64,000 bases of DNA from Halonotius pteroides (lineage in GTDB: Archaea; Halobacteriota; Halobacteria; Halobacteriales; Haloferacaceae), in NCBI RefSeq assembly GCF_003605635.1, contig NZ_QMDW01000011.1, positions 1-64,000 of the forward strand, written 5' to 3'. Positions 3,686 to 11,178 of this stretch are shown here, in pieces; within the stretch, counting starts at the first letter, position 1; the number at the start of each line of letters is the position of its first letter. Both the position numbers and the translations under genes were made by a program. Below the pieces are notes generated by a model, which saw nothing but the letters and a program-made list of their open reading frames with translations, was not told the origin of the DNA and did not search any database.

Positions 3686-4675
3686 TCAGGATGATTTTCG
3701 GCCGATAATATAACTTGCTGCCAGAACTGCGATCAGTGTTAGTGTGACTCCAAACCCAGGAACCGCACTGTCGGTGTCGCCTTCGGATGTTGTACCATTT
3801 CCTGTAGAGCTATCATTAGCTGGTTGTGTAGATGGGGTTGAATCACTTGGTTCAGTGTTTGTTTCGTTCAACTCTGCTTCTGCTCTGGTTTCACTTTCCG
3901 CGGTTGAACTGTTCACGTCCTCGGTTCTATTGCTGTCAGCCTCTGTGTTGTCCGTAGCTTCTTCAGCATCTGTGTCCGCTGTAGTTTCGTCACTATCTAT
4001 GTTCTCGTCTGTCGTCGCTTCACTATCAGACTCATCACTTGTCGTCGCTTCGCTATTTGTGTCTTCTTCGGTTGTCTCCCCACCGTCAGACTCGTCGTCT
4101 GTGTTCTCCTCACTATCGGAATCGTTGTCTGTAGGATCGTCAGCCTGGCTTGGAACCTCCGCGTCAACTGTTCCATCGGTAGTTGTTATTGCAAATTCAG
4201 TTGACCCCTCAGACGCTTTTGCGGTAGTGAATTCGAGCGGTGTTGTTGCCCCGTCATCAGCATCACCCGCGGCCTCGACAGTAATTGTGGCGACTGTTCC
4301 GTTGGCTGTTTCGACGCCTCCGCCATCAAAAATAGCCTCTAAGTATTCTACCTCTCCGGGTGTCGAGATATTGTTTACAAGTGCTCTCCCGCCGAGATAC
4401 GACCCTTGCTCCTGATCGGTTACTGTGATCACATCCGAGTCGTATCTAAGTGTGTATTCAATACCTTGAGGAGTTGCATCCGACAGCCTCTCATATGTGA
4501 CTGCAATTGTTTTGGATTCCCCCTGTTCAAGCGATACGTCGGTTGGTGAGACTGCGACCTCTCCATCTGGTGACTGCGCACTGACACTCGGTGCGCCGAC
4601 GATCAACCCGAGTATTAGTACCTTGACAAACACCACGGTAACTAACTGCTGAAGAGTGTTTCTTTCCATGATCAA
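3686..4675 (-). CDS. cohesin-domain surface protein with PGF-CTERM anchor
   Basis: This 329-residue protein has a signal peptide (to about residue 33, VSA), a cohesin-like beta domain (about 38-175, with typical strands such as GIEYTLRYDSDVITV and VATITVEAAG), a long acidic Ser/Thr/Asp/Glu-rich linker (175-300) and a C-terminal VPGFG, hydrophobic helix and basic tail (GRKSS). The last part is the PGF-CTERM signal, known to be processed by archaeosortase A, which swaps the helix for a lipid. It would thus display a cohesin module on the cell surface, the linker spanning the S-layer. It is the third gene of a minus-strand operon (55-nt gap). The ATG at 4669 is an alternative start. Confidence 0.82.
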   Translation of the reverse strand: MIMERNTLQQLVTVVFVKVLILGLIVGAPSVSAQSPDGEVAVSPTDVSLEQGESKTIAVTYERLSDATPQGIEYTLRYDSDVITVTDQEQGSYLGGRALVNNISTPGEVEYLEAIFDGGGVETANGTVATITVEAAGDADDGATTPLEFTTAKASEGSTEFAITTTDGTVDAEVPSQADDPTDNDSDSEENTDDESDGGETTEEDTNSEATTSDESDSEATTDENIDSDETTADTDAEEATDNTEADSNRTEDVNSSTAESETRAEAELNETNTEPSDSTPSTQPANDSSTGNGTTSEGDTDSAVPGFGVTLTLIAVLAASYIIGRKSS

Positions 4676-4730
4676 TGTCGTTGAGTATGGTGTGCTTGTT
4701 TTGATAGCATGCAGTAGATAACTAGACTCT

Positions 4731-5564
4731 TCAGCTTGCCGGTGATAATCTCATGTTAAGTTTAATATTCATATCTGTTGATTCAATATCACTACTTTCC
4801 GGATCAATCTTGAAACTAATTGTGTTTTCGGGGGATGGATCGTTTGCTGGATCCTCGTTGGCTAATGGAACCTCTGTATCTGTACCCTGTTCAGTGACTG
4901 TCGTTTTTGTAATATCCCTAACTTCTACATCACTGGGTAATGTAATTGTAAACTCATCATCTTTCCCATCAGCACTGACATCGCTTACTGCCAGATCTAG
5001 AGTGTGAATCACCTCTGAATCATTGATCTCTGACGGCGACAGTGCTGCATTTGTAATCTCGACTGTCTCTGGTGTTCCCTCCACAGCTTTAATGCTCCCT
5101 CCGGTGATTTCTATTTCTTGTGTCCCAGCAGTCACCTCACTGAATGTGAGATCAGTCTTGTCACCCTGATCAACACCATCTGCGAGTTCAACAGTAATGG
5201 TTGCAACTGTAAATTCGTCTGATTCGATCTGGTCTTGATTGATCAGATAGCCGAACCTGAATGCGCCTGGATCGATTATATCACTGCCTCCCCGACTGTC
5301 AACGTGTTCTCCAAGCTTGGAGTTGGTCACTTTTATTACCTCAGGATCATGCTCAAGCCGAAATTCTAGGCTGCTTGGACTCTCCCCAGATTGGGTATCA
5401 TAAATAACATCTATTTTTTGCGATTCTCCATCCTCAAGCGAGGTTTCGGTGGGCGTTAGTCTCATCTCTCCGGTCGACTCTCCAGCGACACCAAGAGATC
5501 CGATCATCACGCTGATGACGGCTGCGACAACTACTACAGTTGCAATGGTAGCTTTATCGTACAT
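4731..5564 (-). CDS. secreted cohesin-domain protein
   Basis: This 277-residue protein has an N-terminal hydrophobic signal or anchor (residues 5-27) and a cohesin-like domain (about 30-165). The domain matches that of the next gene in pattern: LTPTETSLEDGESQKIDVIYD here, SPTDVSLEQGESKTIAVTYE there, then SLEFRLEHDPEVIKVT and FTVATITVEL. A second beta-rich domain (about 165-277) follows, with no C-terminal membrane helix. It sits between the dockerin-like gene (22-nt gap) and the PGF-CTERM cohesin gene, so the three are probably co-transcribed. It could be a soluble scaffold piece or held by its N-terminal helix. Codon use is AT-rich. Confidence 0.7.
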   Translation of the reverse strand: MYDKATIATVVVVAAVISVMIGSLGVAGESTGEMRLTPTETSLEDGESQKIDVIYDTQSGESPSSLEFRLEHDPEVIKVTNSKLGEHVDSRGGSDIIDPGAFRFGYLINQDQIESDEFTVATITVELADGVDQGDKTDLTFSEVTAGTQEIEITGGSIKAVEGTPETVEITNAALSPSEINDSEVIHTLDLAVSDVSADGKDDEFTITLPSDVEVRDITKTTVTEQGTDTEVPLANEDPANDPSPENTISFKIDPESSDIESTDMNIKLNMRLSPAS

Positions 5565-5586
5565 AATGTGTCAATACTGTCTGTGA

Positions 5587-7863
5587 TCAGGGTGGCTCGT
5601 ACTCTTGGGCAACGATGGTCACATCCACAAGGTCGACAACGCCATCATTATTCACATCATGTTGGGAATCTTCATTAGTATCTATGGTCTCAATTCCACG
5701 CTTATCAAGTATTGACTCTACATCACCATCTAGAGTCACATTCCCTCTATCGTTTGGAACGTCATCTAAGGTTACATCTCCTCGCTTATATATCTCTTCG
5801 CCATTTCCACCGCGTGGATCGCTTACGGTTTTGTTGTCACCGATCACGCCTCGGCTTGCATCGTTAACCGGCACCACTGTTATATCGTAAACGCTCTTGG
5901 TAGCGTAGCTACCGTTATCGATGAAGGTGTCATCTTGTGGAACATGTGCGAGCGTTCCATCACATGTTGAGAGGCCCTCACAGTCTATGAACTGCGACTC
6001 ATCACTTGATTCGTCGGGAACTTCTCCATTGCGCGTATTATTTAATACAATTTTAGAGATTTCCCCCTCATTACTTTCTGCTTCAACCTCAAATCGCACC
6101 GGGGCACCAACCATGTCGCCACTGCTCGTAAGGTGATCTACATCAGCCTGTTCAAACTCGATGACAGTCTTAGGATTAAATACGTCCACCTCTGTAGTGT
6201 CTGTCTCAAACTTTAATTCCTTAACATCTTTCTCATTAAGATCTGTACTTATTTTACTGTCAGTCGAATTTATTAGTCGACTACCTTCAATATCTGCAGT
6301 GTCAGTGACTGTCTCTAATTCGACGATTTCAGAGTTTTCAGTGTTAGCACTATCTGATTGATCAGGTTCAAACTCACTCTCGAATCTAAATGACATGTTG
6401 AATAGTGTTACATCCTCCGATCCCTCGCTGATGACCGGCCCACCGCTTGCATTTACTATGACCGTTTCAATTTGACCCGCTTCACTTTCTCTGATATCAG
6501 TCCTGTTTCCAATAAGACTAATTTGATATTCGGTATCCTGGTAAACTATCTGATCTGGATTAAATTCAAGAACATGTTTGACAGCATCTACTCTGTCGTC
6601 TCCGGCAGCAGATGCATTCACAGTTAGATTGAATCGACTAGTATCCGATATATTTGCTTCCGAAATATTTGTTTTTATATTTATCCGCTCGGTTGGTGGC
6701 TGGATATCGAACTCATTCGCTTCGTTGACGATATCACTTGGATTATATCGATCAACACGATCAATGGCTTGTGACTGTGGAGATATCGAATTTAAACTTG
6801 TTTCATCATCCAAACTGGCCTCAACTTCGCCACCATCAACAAGCTTTGTAGCATTGACCCCAGAGAAATTGTATGAGTCTTCATTAAATACCGCCTCTGC
6901 ATCGATTGTATTACCATCATTGTCTCTGAGTTCAACAGTGTAATCTTCGTTCTCACCTGTTACTTCATCAGATACTTCTATAAGCCTATGTGGCTCAAAA
7001 ATAACCTTTTTTGTGTTTCCTTCAGTGACTTCTACGGCTTCCGTGTTATCAAGTGTATAGTTTTCTCCATTTATTTCTGCGGTAACATCACCATCACCAC
7101 TAAAATCTGATTCATCGACAGTGAACTCAGCACTTATGTTGTTATTTCCATCTACTTCGATATCTTCCTGATTCTGTTCTTGTCCATCACTCGTCGAAAT
7201 CACAATCTCAGCATCACCATCAACCGGCGCATCACTGACGTTGATTGTTGCGTTAATTACCCCTGTGTTAACCGTCTCACCTTCCTCTAAGTTCCGTCTT
7301 AATGAACTATCGGGGGCCCATGTGTAGCTACTCTCATCTTCAATCCCACCCCCATCGATATAGGCGAATTTATAATCAATCGTATCCGGCGCACCAATAT
7401 CCGCCTCGTCAACTCGCACAACAACATAGCTGTCTTTCTGTTCTACGACCTCAATCTCTGCACTACTACTCCCGTCGAACTGTGATGTTTCTTCATCCCA
7501 CGGTTCGACTACATTTGTCCCATCACCGATTGCAATACGGTAATCGGCGTCGAGATCGCCTAAGTTTTCCCAGAATTTTGCAGTCTCACCACCAGAATCT
7601 GCAAACGTCTCGTCATTGATGCCTTCTGGATTACCAGTGTCAACATAAATGTCTGTTATATTACTGGACAAGTCATTGTTTTTTGTGAATGTTATGTTGA
7701 ATTTTATATCTCCACTATCCTCCTCAATAGTTGCACTATCGAATGGCTCCTTGTCTCCGTCAAAATCGATTGTATCTGCTGCCACGGCAGCTGATGGAAC
7801 CAGCGTAGCCACGATGACCAAGGCCACGAGAAGTATTAATGATCTTCGCAGGACTGTCGACAT
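5587..7863 (-). CDS. large secreted protein with cohesin-like and dockerin-like domains
   Basis: This 758-residue protein has a signal peptide (residues 1-29, cleavage after AVAA), several beta-rich segments with many Asn-X-Ser/Thr sequons, a cohesin-like region around residues 390-510 (KHVLEFNPDQIVYQ, VTLFNMSFRFESE) and a C-terminal dockerin-like module (about 695-756). The module contains one canonical calcium loop, DVNNDGVVDLVD, preceded by a degenerate copy (GDVTLDD to DGDVESIL). Dockerins bind cohesins in calcium-dependent complexes, and two cohesin genes lie directly downstream. It lacks a PGF-CTERM, so it may be held at the surface through its partner. A box A (AGTTATAATTGC, minus strand, 7883-7894) lies 26 nt before the ATG. 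Confidence 0.75.
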   Translation of the reverse strand: MSTVLRRSLILLVALVIVATLVPSAAVAADTIDFDGDKEPFDSATIEEDSGDIKFNITFTKNNDLSSNITDIYVDTGNPEGINDETFADSGGETAKFWENLGDLDADYRIAIGDGTNVVEPWDEETSQFDGSSSAEIEVVEQKDSYVVVRVDEADIGAPDTIDYKFAYIDGGGIEDESSYTWAPDSSLRRNLEEGETVNTGVINATINVSDAPVDGDAEIVISTSDGQEQNQEDIEVDGNNNISAEFTVDESDFSGDGDVTAEINGENYTLDNTEAVEVTEGNTKKVIFEPHRLIEVSDEVTGENEDYTVELRDNDGNTIDAEAVFNEDSYNFSGVNATKLVDGGEVEASLDDETSLNSISPQSQAIDRVDRYNPSDIVNEANEFDIQPPTERINIKTNISEANISDTSRFNLTVNASAAGDDRVDAVKHVLEFNPDQIVYQDTEYQISLIGNRTDIRESEAGQIETVIVNASGGPVISEGSEDVTLFNMSFRFESEFEPDQSDSANTENSEIVELETVTDTADIEGSRLINSTDSKISTDLNEKDVKELKFETDTTEVDVFNPKTVIEFEQADVDHLTSSGDMVGAPVRFEVEAESNEGEISKIVLNNTRNGEVPDESSDESQFIDCEGLSTCDGTLAHVPQDDTFIDNGSYATKSVYDITVVPVNDASRGVIGDNKTVSDPRGGNGEEIYKRGDVTLDDVPNDRGNVTLDGDVESILDKRGIETIDTNEDSQHDVNNDGVVDLVDVTIVAQEYEPP

Positions 7864-7974
7864 AACATAATAAATATCATGTGCAATTATAACTCTTTTC
7901 CAACATTATCATGATTGATACGATCCCCGCTAGCCTTATTACGCTGCTATTAAAATATAACTGTACTATCACCG
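7864..7974. promoter_or_regulatory. divergent promoter region of the surface cluster
   Basis: This AT-rich 111-nt spacer separates the divergent surface genes. Minus strand: AGTTATAATTGC (7883-7894), centred 26 nt before the ATG at 7863, predicts a leaderless transcript. Plus strand: TTAAAATATAAC (7950-7961), 14-25 nt before the ATG at 7975. One short spacer therefore controls all four surface genes and may allow joint regulation. Confidence 0.6.
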
Positions 7975-10900
7975 ATGCTTCCCAAAATAAAAGCCCCGTC
8001 ATACACGGCAGCAATGCTTGCCGGATGTATGATGATAGGGTTATTATTACTGCTGCCCGGTGCGGCGACTGCCCAGGCAGCGAATGGGACGCTTGAGCTG
8101 AAGGTTATTAACGCAGACGGCGAGCCAATTGACGGAGCAGAAGTCCGAGTCAACGACGAATCAATCGATAAAACTGAGTTCAATAATGATCTGATTGAGG
8201 GTGAGGCTACTGTTGAGACCGATAGCGACGGTCGTTTCAGGAATGCTAGCGTTCCTGTTGGGGTGAAAAATATCACTGTCGGTAACCCTGGAGACTCCGA
8301 GTTTAAATATGAGAGCCAATATCATGAGTCGGTAGCTATCTTAATTGGTGAGACAACTACAGAACAATTCACTCTTGAAAGGAAAACAAGAACAGTTACT
8401 GGTCAAGTGTTTAGCAATGGTCGGGATCCTGCGCCAATCTCTGATGCCACAGTTGAGGTTACGAATATTACCAAGCAGCAGCGGGATCTGATTAGGAACT
8501 CTGATAGCTTGCGTCAAACGGCGACAACTAATGATGTCGGTGAATACCGCATCGATATTCCCACATCGACCGGTCTTAATCTTAGCTTTAGTCGTGACGG
8601 ATACAAATCTACCGAGGTGGTGATTGGTAGTGATGACTCCGGTGAGGTAATAAATAACTTGCTTCACGTGCTTGAAAATCAAGACGGAGTGGTGTTTGGA
8701 ACTGTTACTGTTGACAACAACGGTGAAGTACCTGTCTCCGGAGCGGTTATTAAAGCTGATGTTAATCCTGCCAATTGGGCTCAGATCGACGAAGCTGACA
8801 TCTCCGATACAACTGGTTCAGACGGTGCGTATCGTATCAGAGCGCCAAGCGGTAGACACACTGTTATTGTAGAATCAGAAACATTTAATAATAAGAAAAA
8901 AGAGGTTACAGTTCGCCCTAACGAAGCTAATGAAACGAACTTCTCGCTTGGGATTCGACAACTCCAAATTGATTCTGTGACTCCACAAACAGTGCAGTCG
9001 GGCGACACTGTTAGCATCGACTACACATACTCAGGGCAGTTTGAGACGCTCAATTTCACCGTGGGACCTGAGAATCAACCTATTATTTCTCAAGAGGTTG
9101 ACGATGCTGTCTCATCGGGAAAGATCACATTCGAAACCCCTGATCGAAGTGAAATCGAAGACGGAAATTACACGATCACACTTTCGACACCACGCAGGAC
9201 AGCCACCGACACAATCCGCGTTTTGAACCCAGTTGACCCTGAGGCAGTCGGCGTCGGCGAGTTGGGCGAAGAGTCTTATCGGGCACCGGCTGGTGATTTC
9301 GTGGAAATAACCACCGGTGGTGAATACATGCTTATTGGCGGCGACAGGCCATCTGACAACAGTGATACGATTACGCAGTATCTTGACGTGCTATACGTTG
9401 AGGAGGGTTCAACGACAATTAACACACGGCTTGTGGGTACAGCTGTCTCCTCGGATCGGGCGTACGGTGAGGGGGTGAAGAGCTACGCCCATTCCATCGG
9501 TGCTGATTCCGAACCACGTGGTGATTTTGCTGATGTCTCGTTTACCGGTGCGTCTACCTTGGCTGAATTCCGCCGGAATCTGGGTATCGATAGCCGAGCT
9601 ACCCCCTTACAAACCGGCCGTTACCGGTTGCTAGCCGGCGAAAATGGCCGTATAACCGTCGATAGTGGTGTCCCGCGGTTCCGCAAGCCTGTCGGCCGCT
9701 CAAACCTGATTTTGACCCAACCACAGTTGGAGGCTGTAAACACGTATGTCCTCCCACCTGAGTCGGCAAATGCCGAAGATGTTGCTGGCCCTTCGGATGA
9801 CGCTACCGAATCAAACACGATTGCGGAGGGCGAACGACTCCTGATCGAGATTCAAGCTACCGGAATGTATGGTGCTACAACCGACGATCCGACCGTTGAA
9901 TCAATCCCACCTGCTGCCATTGCAGATCTGTTAGCAAAACCCGAGGGTGTCGATATGGATCTTTCAACATGGTACTATGATGGCTCCGAAAACACTGAAG
10001 CAGATCTACAATTTTCTGCTGTGAGCCCCAGCGACGTATACGTGATCCCGGACACCACAACAGATCAATGGGAGGATGAAACAGTCATCGGCGAAGATAG
10101 CCTGATTAGTGGCTTATATATCGTTGTTGACACCCGCGGTGAAGCATTTTCGGCACCTGCATATGGCGACGTTATGCAGTTTACAACGGCGTATGAATCT
10201 CCCGATGGTAGCCGATATTTGTATCAGGACACCGATGCTGGTACGCAGCCACGACCATTTGATCCGGCCATTGAGTCTGCCGATGGCGTTGAGCATTATC
10301 CCTACTTTGGTGCGACTGATACAACCGTCGCGGTAAACAGCACAGTTGAATTCATGGAACCATCAATTCAATACGGACGAACCACAGTTGACGGCAGTCT
10401 TGTGGTGCCAGCCGAAACCGGTGGGCAGATCCTTGGCTCAACAACATTGGCGCCAGGCACTCAAGCCACGATCCAGCTTATCGATCAGAGCCGATCTGAT
10501 CCTGAACTTGTAACGATCGACGAGGTTACGATCGAAGACGATCGAACGTTTACTGCATCCGCAGATTTCTCTGAGCTTGCGTCGGGTGATCAGGTCACTG
10601 TTGAGTTCTATACTGCTGGTCGACTTCCCGGTAACCGTGTTATCGACAGACGGGGTGCGCGTGTTGTTGAGGATATAAACAATATCGCAAACTACCAGAT
10701 AACTAATTTTTCTGGCACAGTTGCGGTTCAACAACGATCTTCGCTTTCTGAGGTTGAAGCCACTATCAATAATACGGGTGAACTCACCGGTCAACAGGTG
10801 GTACGGTTTAGCATTGACGGGAAACCGATTCGCAACGAATCACTCCGTTTGAGTGGAAACGGGAACGCGACACTCGATCTCTCTGATCAGTTTGTTACAC

Positions 10901-11178
10901 TCCCGGTCGGTACCTATGAGTACACTGTCCGAACTGACAACGATGAGCAAACAGGTGAGCTCAGAGTCGCATCGCCAGAGAGTGGAACAACGATCACCAG
11001 CGAGGACACCAATACGACGACCACCAGTAGCCCACTTGATGAAAACGAGCTGCCTGGGGAGAACGATGACGAGTCGGATCCCAACGGCCTCTTTGGCATA
11101 GTGGGCGTCAGTGGTCGGGATGTTGCCCTTGGTGCCGCGCTCACCGGAACCGCACACGTGCTTGGCTACTGGACGTAA
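7975..11178 (+). CDS. large multi-domain surface protein (carboxypeptidase-regulatory-like repeats, BGTF-like domain)
   Basis: This 1067-residue protein has a signal peptide (to about residue 35, ATAQA). Three carboxypeptidase-regulatory-like beta domains follow (about 38-125, 130-220, 235-320; each has the GxVxxxxGxPIxxAxV and DGxYRI pattern). Next comes an Ig-like segment near 325-415, then two related segments (about 420-585 and 585-770, IAEGERLLIEI) resembling haloarchaeal S-layer-type domains. A BGTF-like surface domain lies at about 790-900 and a CARDB-like domain at 910-1000. The C-terminus has an acidic Ser/Thr-rich linker and a weak hydrophobic segment, with no PGF motif. It is divergent from the cohesin operon and probably belongs to the same surface system. 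Codon use shifts from AT-rich at the start towards the genomic norm. Confidence 0.72.
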   Translation: MLPKIKAPSYTAAMLAGCMMIGLLLLLPGAATAQAANGTLELKVINADGEPIDGAEVRVNDESIDKTEFNNDLIEGEATVETDSDGRFRNASVPVGVKNITVGNPGDSEFKYESQYHESVAILIGETTTEQFTLERKTRTVTGQVFSNGRDPAPISDATVEVTNITKQQRDLIRNSDSLRQTATTNDVGEYRIDIPTSTGLNLSFSRDGYKSTEVVIGSDDSGEVINNLLHVLENQDGVVFGTVTVDNNGEVPVSGAVIKADVNPANWAQIDEADISDTTGSDGAYRIRAPSGRHTVIVESETFNNKKKEVTVRPNEANETNFSLGIRQLQIDSVTPQTVQSGDTVSIDYTYSGQFETLNFTVGPENQPIISQEVDDAVSSGKITFETPDRSEIEDGNYTITLSTPRRTATDTIRVLNPVDPEAVGVGELGEESYRAPAGDFVEITTGGEYMLIGGDRPSDNSDTITQYLDVLYVEEGSTTINTRLVGTAVSSDRAYGEGVKSYAHSIGADSEPRGDFADVSFTGASTLAEFRRNLGIDSRATPLQTGRYRLLAGENGRITVDSGVPRFRKPVGRSNLILTQPQLEAVNTYVLPPESANAEDVAGPSDDATESNTIAEGERLLIEIQATGMYGATTDDPTVESIPPAAIADLLAKPEGVDMDLSTWYYDGSENTEADLQFSAVSPSDVYVIPDTTTDQWEDETVIGEDSLISGLYIVVDTRGEAFSAPAYGDVMQFTTAYESPDGSRYLYQDTDAGTQPRPFDPAIESADGVEHYPYFGATDTTVAVNSTVEFMEPSIQYGRTTVDGSLVVPAETGGQILGSTTLAPGTQATIQLIDQSRSDPELVTIDEVTIEDDRTFTASADFSELASGDQVTVEFYTAGRLPGNRVIDRRGARVVEDINNIANYQITNFSGTVAVQQRSSLSEVEATINNTGELTGQQVVRFSIDGKPIRNESLRLSGNGNATLDLSDQFVTLPVGTYEYTVRTDNDEQTGELRVASPESGTTITSEDTNTTTTSSPLDENELPGENDDESDPNGLFGIVGVSGRDVALGAALTGTAHVLGYWT

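Follow-up and report, generated by a model that had tools for sequence, protein, structure and literature searches.

A cohesin- and dockerin-like gene cluster with one PGF-CTERM signal in the haloarchaeon Halonotius pteroides

Bacterial cellulosomes combine cohesin and dockerin modules with a surface-anchored cohesin. Archaeal, non-cellulosomal cohesins and dockerins are known from Archaeoglobus fulgidus (Bayer 1999; Voronov-Goldman 2011, PDB ID: 2xdh), and the role of such modules outside cellulosomes has been an open question since 1999. In anaerobic methanotrophic archaea (ANME), proteins with up to five cohesins and proteins joining dockerins with cohesins were described, with a proposed role in attaching proteins to the outer cell layer; according to the same study, earlier work had found no such scaffoldins in archaea that have dockerins or cohesins (Chadwick 2022, PMC9012536). 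Binding between archaeal cohesins and dockerins is reported in papers which that study cites. Two texts on haloarchaeal dockerin enzymes (PMC10963439 and PMC13260240) do not contain the word cohesin, and cohesin partners were apparently not considered in either. Here we describe three adjacent genes of Halonotius pteroides, coding for secreted cohesin- and dockerin-like proteins of 758, 277 and 329 amino acids (aa). They are located in a stretch of 64,000 nucleotides (the window) at the start of contig 19 (NZ_QMDW01000011.1) of a 3.0 Mb draft genome (GCF_003605635.1), whose host order holds haloarchaea.

Our analysis confirmed that the cohesin- and dockerin-like surface cluster, originally predicted from the sequence alone, is real. 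An open reading frame (ORF) check recovered the three minus-strand genes and a divergent neighbour with the same boundaries and strands as in the original prediction (Table 1). Transcription of the three genes runs from the 758-aa through the 277-aa to the 329-aa protein, and because the gaps between them span only 22 nt (758-aa/277-aa) and about 55 nt (277-aa/329-aa), a single, co-transcribed operon is suggested. Their reading frames are all intact and each product starts with a hydrophobic, signal-like N-terminus, in agreement with the predicted secretion. We propose, with moderate confidence, that the products of this operon-like unit let a secreted protein, here without a recognisable enzyme domain, dock in a calcium-dependent manner onto a cohesin anchored at the cell surface.

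Table 1. Features of the cohesin- and dockerin-like gene cluster and its divergent neighbour (positions in the window)
Feature	Position	Strand	Basis
329-aa secreted protein: cohesin, acidic linker, PGF-CTERM	3686..4675	-	ORF and Pfam/NCBIfam
PGF-CTERM archaeosortase signal, residues 301-327 of 329-aa protein	3695..3775	-	TIGR04126 29.1 bits, cut-off 24.5; PF18204 23.4 bits, cut-off 18.8
Cohesin domain PF00963 of 329-aa protein	4166..4555	-	33.3 bits in whole-genome search; 30.3 bits, cut-off 24.1
277-aa secreted protein with cohesin domain and C-terminal domain	4731..5564	-	ORF and profile matches
C-terminal domain of 277-aa protein	4734..5087	-	Also terminates other secreted proteins of the genome
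Cohesin domain of 277-aa protein, residues 34-155	5100..5459	-	Independent haloarchaeal profile, E 7e-6
758-aa secreted protein; modules after the N-terminal part: cohesin-like, Ig-like, dockerin-like	5587..7863	-	First gene of the proposed operon-like unit
Dockerin-like module, residues 699-757 of 758-aa protein	5593..5769	-	Haloarchaeal dockerin profile; first calcium loop degenerate
Canonical second calcium loop DVNNDGVVDLVD, residues 736-747 of 758-aa protein	5623..5658	-	Sequence; Dockerin_1 match 735-752
Probable cohesin-like domain, residues 395-545 of 758-aa protein	6229..6681	-	Marginal sequence signal and AlphaFold model
1067-aa surface protein with CarboxypepD_reg and BGTF domains	7975-11178		Divergent from the three genes

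The three genes diverge from the archaeal cohesin-dockerin systems known so far, but are a variant of the same kind. Archaeoglobus fulgidus shares with the window its non-cellulosomal cohesins and dockerins, but the window differs in the PGF-CTERM anchor on a cohesin, the separate second cohesin gene and the large orphan dockerin protein, and the sequences are very divergent. Proteins joining dockerins and cohesins are common to the window and ANME; the ANME sets include proteins with S-layer (surface layer) domains and binding proteins of ABC transporters, whereas the window uses PGF-CTERM and contains no transporter domain. With bacterial cellulosomes the window shares cohesin-dockerin modules and a surface-anchored cohesin, but its cluster lacks a multi-cohesin scaffoldin, a glycoside hydrolase and a carbohydrate-binding module. 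The originally suggested term "cellulosome-like" is therefore too strong for this locus: cohesins occur in this genome one per chain, the two firm ones on separate chains, and the only dockerin belongs to a protein with no enzyme domain. Pfam and NCBIfam scans agreed with the prediction that the cluster contains no catalytic domain.

The 329-aa protein carries the only PF00963 match in the whole genome. It is also recognised (E 9e-11) by a haloarchaeal cohesin profile that was built from 30 haloarchaeal loci and includes no sequence of the window; this E-value, as well as that of the 277-aa protein, refers to a small set of proteins predicted in the window and in 20 loci. The PGF motif at the C-terminus is followed by a membrane segment and a basic tail. 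The composition predicted for the third gene (cohesin-like domain, acidic linker and PGF-CTERM) was thus borne out, with both the cohesin and the PGF-CTERM models above their cut-offs. PGF-CTERM signals are processed by archaeosortase A, and this enzyme is encoded elsewhere in the genome (TIGR04125, 300 bits, cut-off 75). The 329-aa ORF opens at TTG; the ATG two codons later (position 4669), which gives a protein of 327 aa, is the likelier start.

No Pfam match, PF00963 included, was obtained for the 277-aa protein, whose cohesin domain was recognised by the independent haloarchaeal profile. This cohesin and that of the 329-aa protein share 34% identity, and motifs are conserved in both. The description of this protein as a soluble cohesin-like one holds for the cohesin; its solubility is unproven because its C-terminal domain is common to other secreted proteins, and the protein may be attached through that domain.

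The unannotated C-terminal domain of the 277-aa protein comprises about 110 residues and has four matches in the genome, on otherwise unrelated secreted proteins; a beta-helix protein and a DUF4399 protein end in it. It is also present in large proteins of a few relatives (L138:1492-1800; L139:1468-1785) and is possibly an attachment or sorting domain.

The dockerin-like module is located at the C-terminus of the 758-aa protein. The haloarchaeal dockerin profile aligns with both its halves (E 0.013 for the whole protein), and the canonical calcium loop DVNNDGVVDLVD is followed by a helix. A fold search with an AlphaFold model of residues 380-758 was uninformative. Residues 395-545 probably form a cohesin-like domain. 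By sequence this region is marginal (E 0.08, ranking first or second when compared with 200 shuffles), and the claim rests on structural modelling and PDB matches, because profile-profile comparison assigned it a probability of only about 1%. The AlphaFold model, guided by 19 cohesin rows, reached a predicted local distance difference test (pLDDT) score of 72 and a predicted template modelling (pTM) score of 0.67, and cohesins made up all of its top 32 PDB matches (E from 1.1e-5), 2xdh of Archaeoglobus fulgidus among them; as the model is homologue-guided, the domain is no more than probable. The cohesin-like region claimed in this protein is thus a probable one. The N-terminal part of about 390 residues contains no domain recognised by Pfam or NCBIfam. 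No relatives of the 758-aa protein were found in 243 genomes of the order, in a collection of genome contigs (genome_contigs) or in plasmids; one weak match (locus L004) was discarded as an unrelated protein.

Searches with PF00963 and with a second cohesin profile (A1) located cohesins of this genome only within the described cluster. Profile A1 matches solved bacterial cohesins and, weakly, the Archaeoglobus cohesin 2xdh; it includes sequences of the window, which inflates its E-values for the 277-aa and 329-aa proteins, and the same applies to the dockerin profile A2. Even with a limit of E <= 1, the dockerin-like module of the 758-aa protein was the sole dockerin candidate of this genome. 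A second cohesin cluster, considered at 71-73 kb of contig 19, was rejected, as this region consists of ordinary surface-protein genes with no convincing cohesin. Among solved structures, PDB entries 8x39 and 8x3a contain chains named "serine protease", in which the haloarchaeal dockerin profile matches a dockerin.

The arrangement of the cluster recurs in other haloarchaea throughout the order Halobacteriales. Pfam cohesins are present in 73 and dockerins in 96 of the 243 genomes of the order; 37 have both, a weak association between genomes (Fisher p 0.015), and many dockerin genes have no cohesin gene nearby. Nevertheless, dockerin and cohesin are less than 3 kb apart in at least 18 genomes, some of the pairs being in one chain. 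At 21 of the 23 loci having both, a separate cohesin gene comes next after the dockerin gene, in the same orientation (p 3e-11 against 1/4 expected by chance). These loci were drawn from 20 regions and seven named loci; the first 20 were selected partly for adjacency but not for order or strand, and the loci are not fully independent (L079 and L155 come from the same organism, L158 and L159 are near-identical, L076 and L077 are adjacent). The downstream separate cohesin is often PGF-CTERM anchored, and the upstream gene ends in cohesin-dockerin in nearly all relatives. The seven named loci (Natronorubrum texcoconense, Halobiforma nitratireducens, three of Natrialba and two of uncultured Halobacteriales/Haloferacaceae) were chosen only for their cohesin-dockerin protein, and all seven have a separate cohesin gene directly downstream, five with PGF. 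Ten of the 13 dockerin proteins of these loci scanned with Pfam are Peptidase_S8 subtilases with a C-terminal dockerin; the usual form in relatives is a subtilase ending in cohesin-dockerin. The order of the 758-aa, 277-aa and 329-aa genes follows the same rule. The exact three-gene set, for which the original prediction suggested a search, was not found elsewhere; only the general dockerin-then-cohesin layout recurs.

A close counterpart of the cluster is the haloarchaeal pair of a subtilase-cohesin-dockerin gene and a separate cohesin gene, found for example in Natrialba, Natronorubrum and Halobiforma. As in the window, its products are secreted, the dockerin gene precedes the cohesin gene on the same strand, and the cohesin protein carries PGF-CTERM or a C-terminal membrane segment. 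In contrast, the 758-aa protein has neither a subtilase nor a CarboxypepD_reg domain, about 150 residues separate its cohesin-like and dockerin modules, and two cohesin genes follow it instead of one. We found no description of the haloarchaeal pair of subtilase-dockerin and separate cohesin in the open literature, subscription papers being mostly outside the search, and its novelty is provisional.

Two other haloarchaeal genomes contain larger sets of these modules. In G087 (contig 1, approximately 468-493 kb; L076:3001-20000, L154:1566-5342, L077:3700-8110), a cluster of about 25 kb encodes five subtilase-dockerins, a 1258-aa PGF-CTERM scaffoldin with eight cohesins, a further cohesin-dockerin protein and several PGF proteins with a single cohesin each. 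It appears to be a cellulosome-like array bearing proteases. The 2.7 Mb genome G003 (contig 1, locus L065 and many other places) has 75 dockerin candidates, at least 25 of them scored as matches, and 13 cohesin candidates, and looks like a docking system with many clients.

According to the proposed docking mechanism, the 329-aa protein would be secreted, cut at PGF-CTERM and lipid-anchored by archaeosortase A, with the acidic linker keeping its cohesin at a distance from the cell. The 758-aa protein would likewise be secreted, and calcium-dependent binding of its C-terminal dockerin to a cohesin would display the N-terminal part on the cell. Any cohesin partner within the cell must lie in the cluster, because cohesins were found only there; the 277-aa cohesin could act as an adaptor or an alternative receptor. 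Chains of the 758-aa protein could also link head to tail, given the probable cohesin-like domain that precedes the dockerin in each of them. The system would serve here to display a surface or adhesion protein that is not an enzyme, and in relatives to display subtilases.

Several observations weigh against such docking. Although the dockerin-like nature of the 758-aa protein, predicted from the canonical loop near its C-terminus, was upheld as to the loop, the Dockerin_1 model (PF00404) stays below its cut-off of 22.9 (20.3 bits in the genome scan, 14.3 bits in hmmscan), and the first calcium loop is degenerate. The AlphaFold model of residues 380-758, built with dockerin rows only, has a pLDDT of 43 and is confident only at the last dockerin helix, and that of residues 395-545, built from cohesin rows, is biased towards the cohesin fold. 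No enzyme or other recognised cargo domain, Peptidase_S8 included, was found in the 758-aa protein, and the trio in its exact form was seen in this genome alone. The degenerate loop, the sub-threshold score and the lack of an enzyme domain, together with the patchy presence of the trio in the genus, would also fit a vestigial system, whose cohesins and dockerin-like module come from a docking pair that has lost its binding, the enzyme of the 758-aa protein being lost and its first loop decaying. We regard such decay as unlikely in view of the intact reading frames with signal-like N-termini in all three genes, the motifs conserved in two cohesins, and the canonical second loop and C-terminal position which the dockerin has retained. 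Some natural dockerins, moreover, function with one dominant half.

Since cohesin and dockerin share one chain in nearly all relatives, and probably here as well, the dockerin might instead bind a cohesin-like domain within its own 758-aa chain or in an adjacent one, forming a self-capped protein or a filament with no attachment to an anchored cohesin. Self-association alone does not explain why a separate cohesin gene, often with PGF-CTERM, lies downstream at nearly all of the loci compared, and we find it distinctly improbable. Least credible to us is that the dockerin-like module is a structural element binding substrate or calcium and the cohesins are ordinary beta-sandwich domains of surface proteins. 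Dockerins of haloarchaeal mannanases and glycosaminoglycan (GAG) lyases have indeed been described as substrate-binding (PMC10963439, PMC13260240), and the many dockerin genes of the order with no cohesin gene nearby would agree with this; the tight, ordered pairing of dockerin with cohesin genes and the binding of archaeal modules reported in papers cited in PMC9012536 argue against it.

Docking onto an anchored cohesin, the reading we prefer, may extend beyond the window. The chances seem to us about even that haloarchaea widely display dockerin-bearing secreted proteins, mostly subtilisin-like proteases, on archaeosortase-anchored cohesins, up to an eight-cohesin scaffoldin with five protease clients in a single genome, and that the window holds a divergent, enzyme-free version showing an orphan surface protein. 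Such an arrangement seems to be a general means of attaching proteins to archaeal cells, and a main cargo would seem to be proteases, not cellulases. If true, a non-covalent display route would be added to archaeosortase anchoring, and salt-tolerant docking pairs would become available for engineering. The recurrent pairing of dockerin proteins with a separate and in many cases anchored cohesin in cultivable haloarchaea makes the role of these modules directly testable.

The 1067-aa surface protein, which the original prediction included in the system, is an older neighbour and not a member of it: it is conserved in the genus and present in three sister species without the cluster. In these species (L120, L121, L122) the locus is intact and a zinc-ribbon gene directly adjoins the 1067-aa homologue. 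As all three genes are lacking together there, the data are consistent with gain or loss of the trio as a whole unit. No flanking repeats or integration sites were found around the trio. Its genes are the part of the window lowest in guanine and cytosine (GC), with 43-50% per gene against 60% for the window; horizontal transfer argued from this alone was rejected, because the 1067-aa homologues of the cluster-free sister species have a low GC content as well (47-49%). The 1067-aa protein is itself diverging fast, with 39-66% identity within the genus compared to roughly 55-97% for neighbouring genes.

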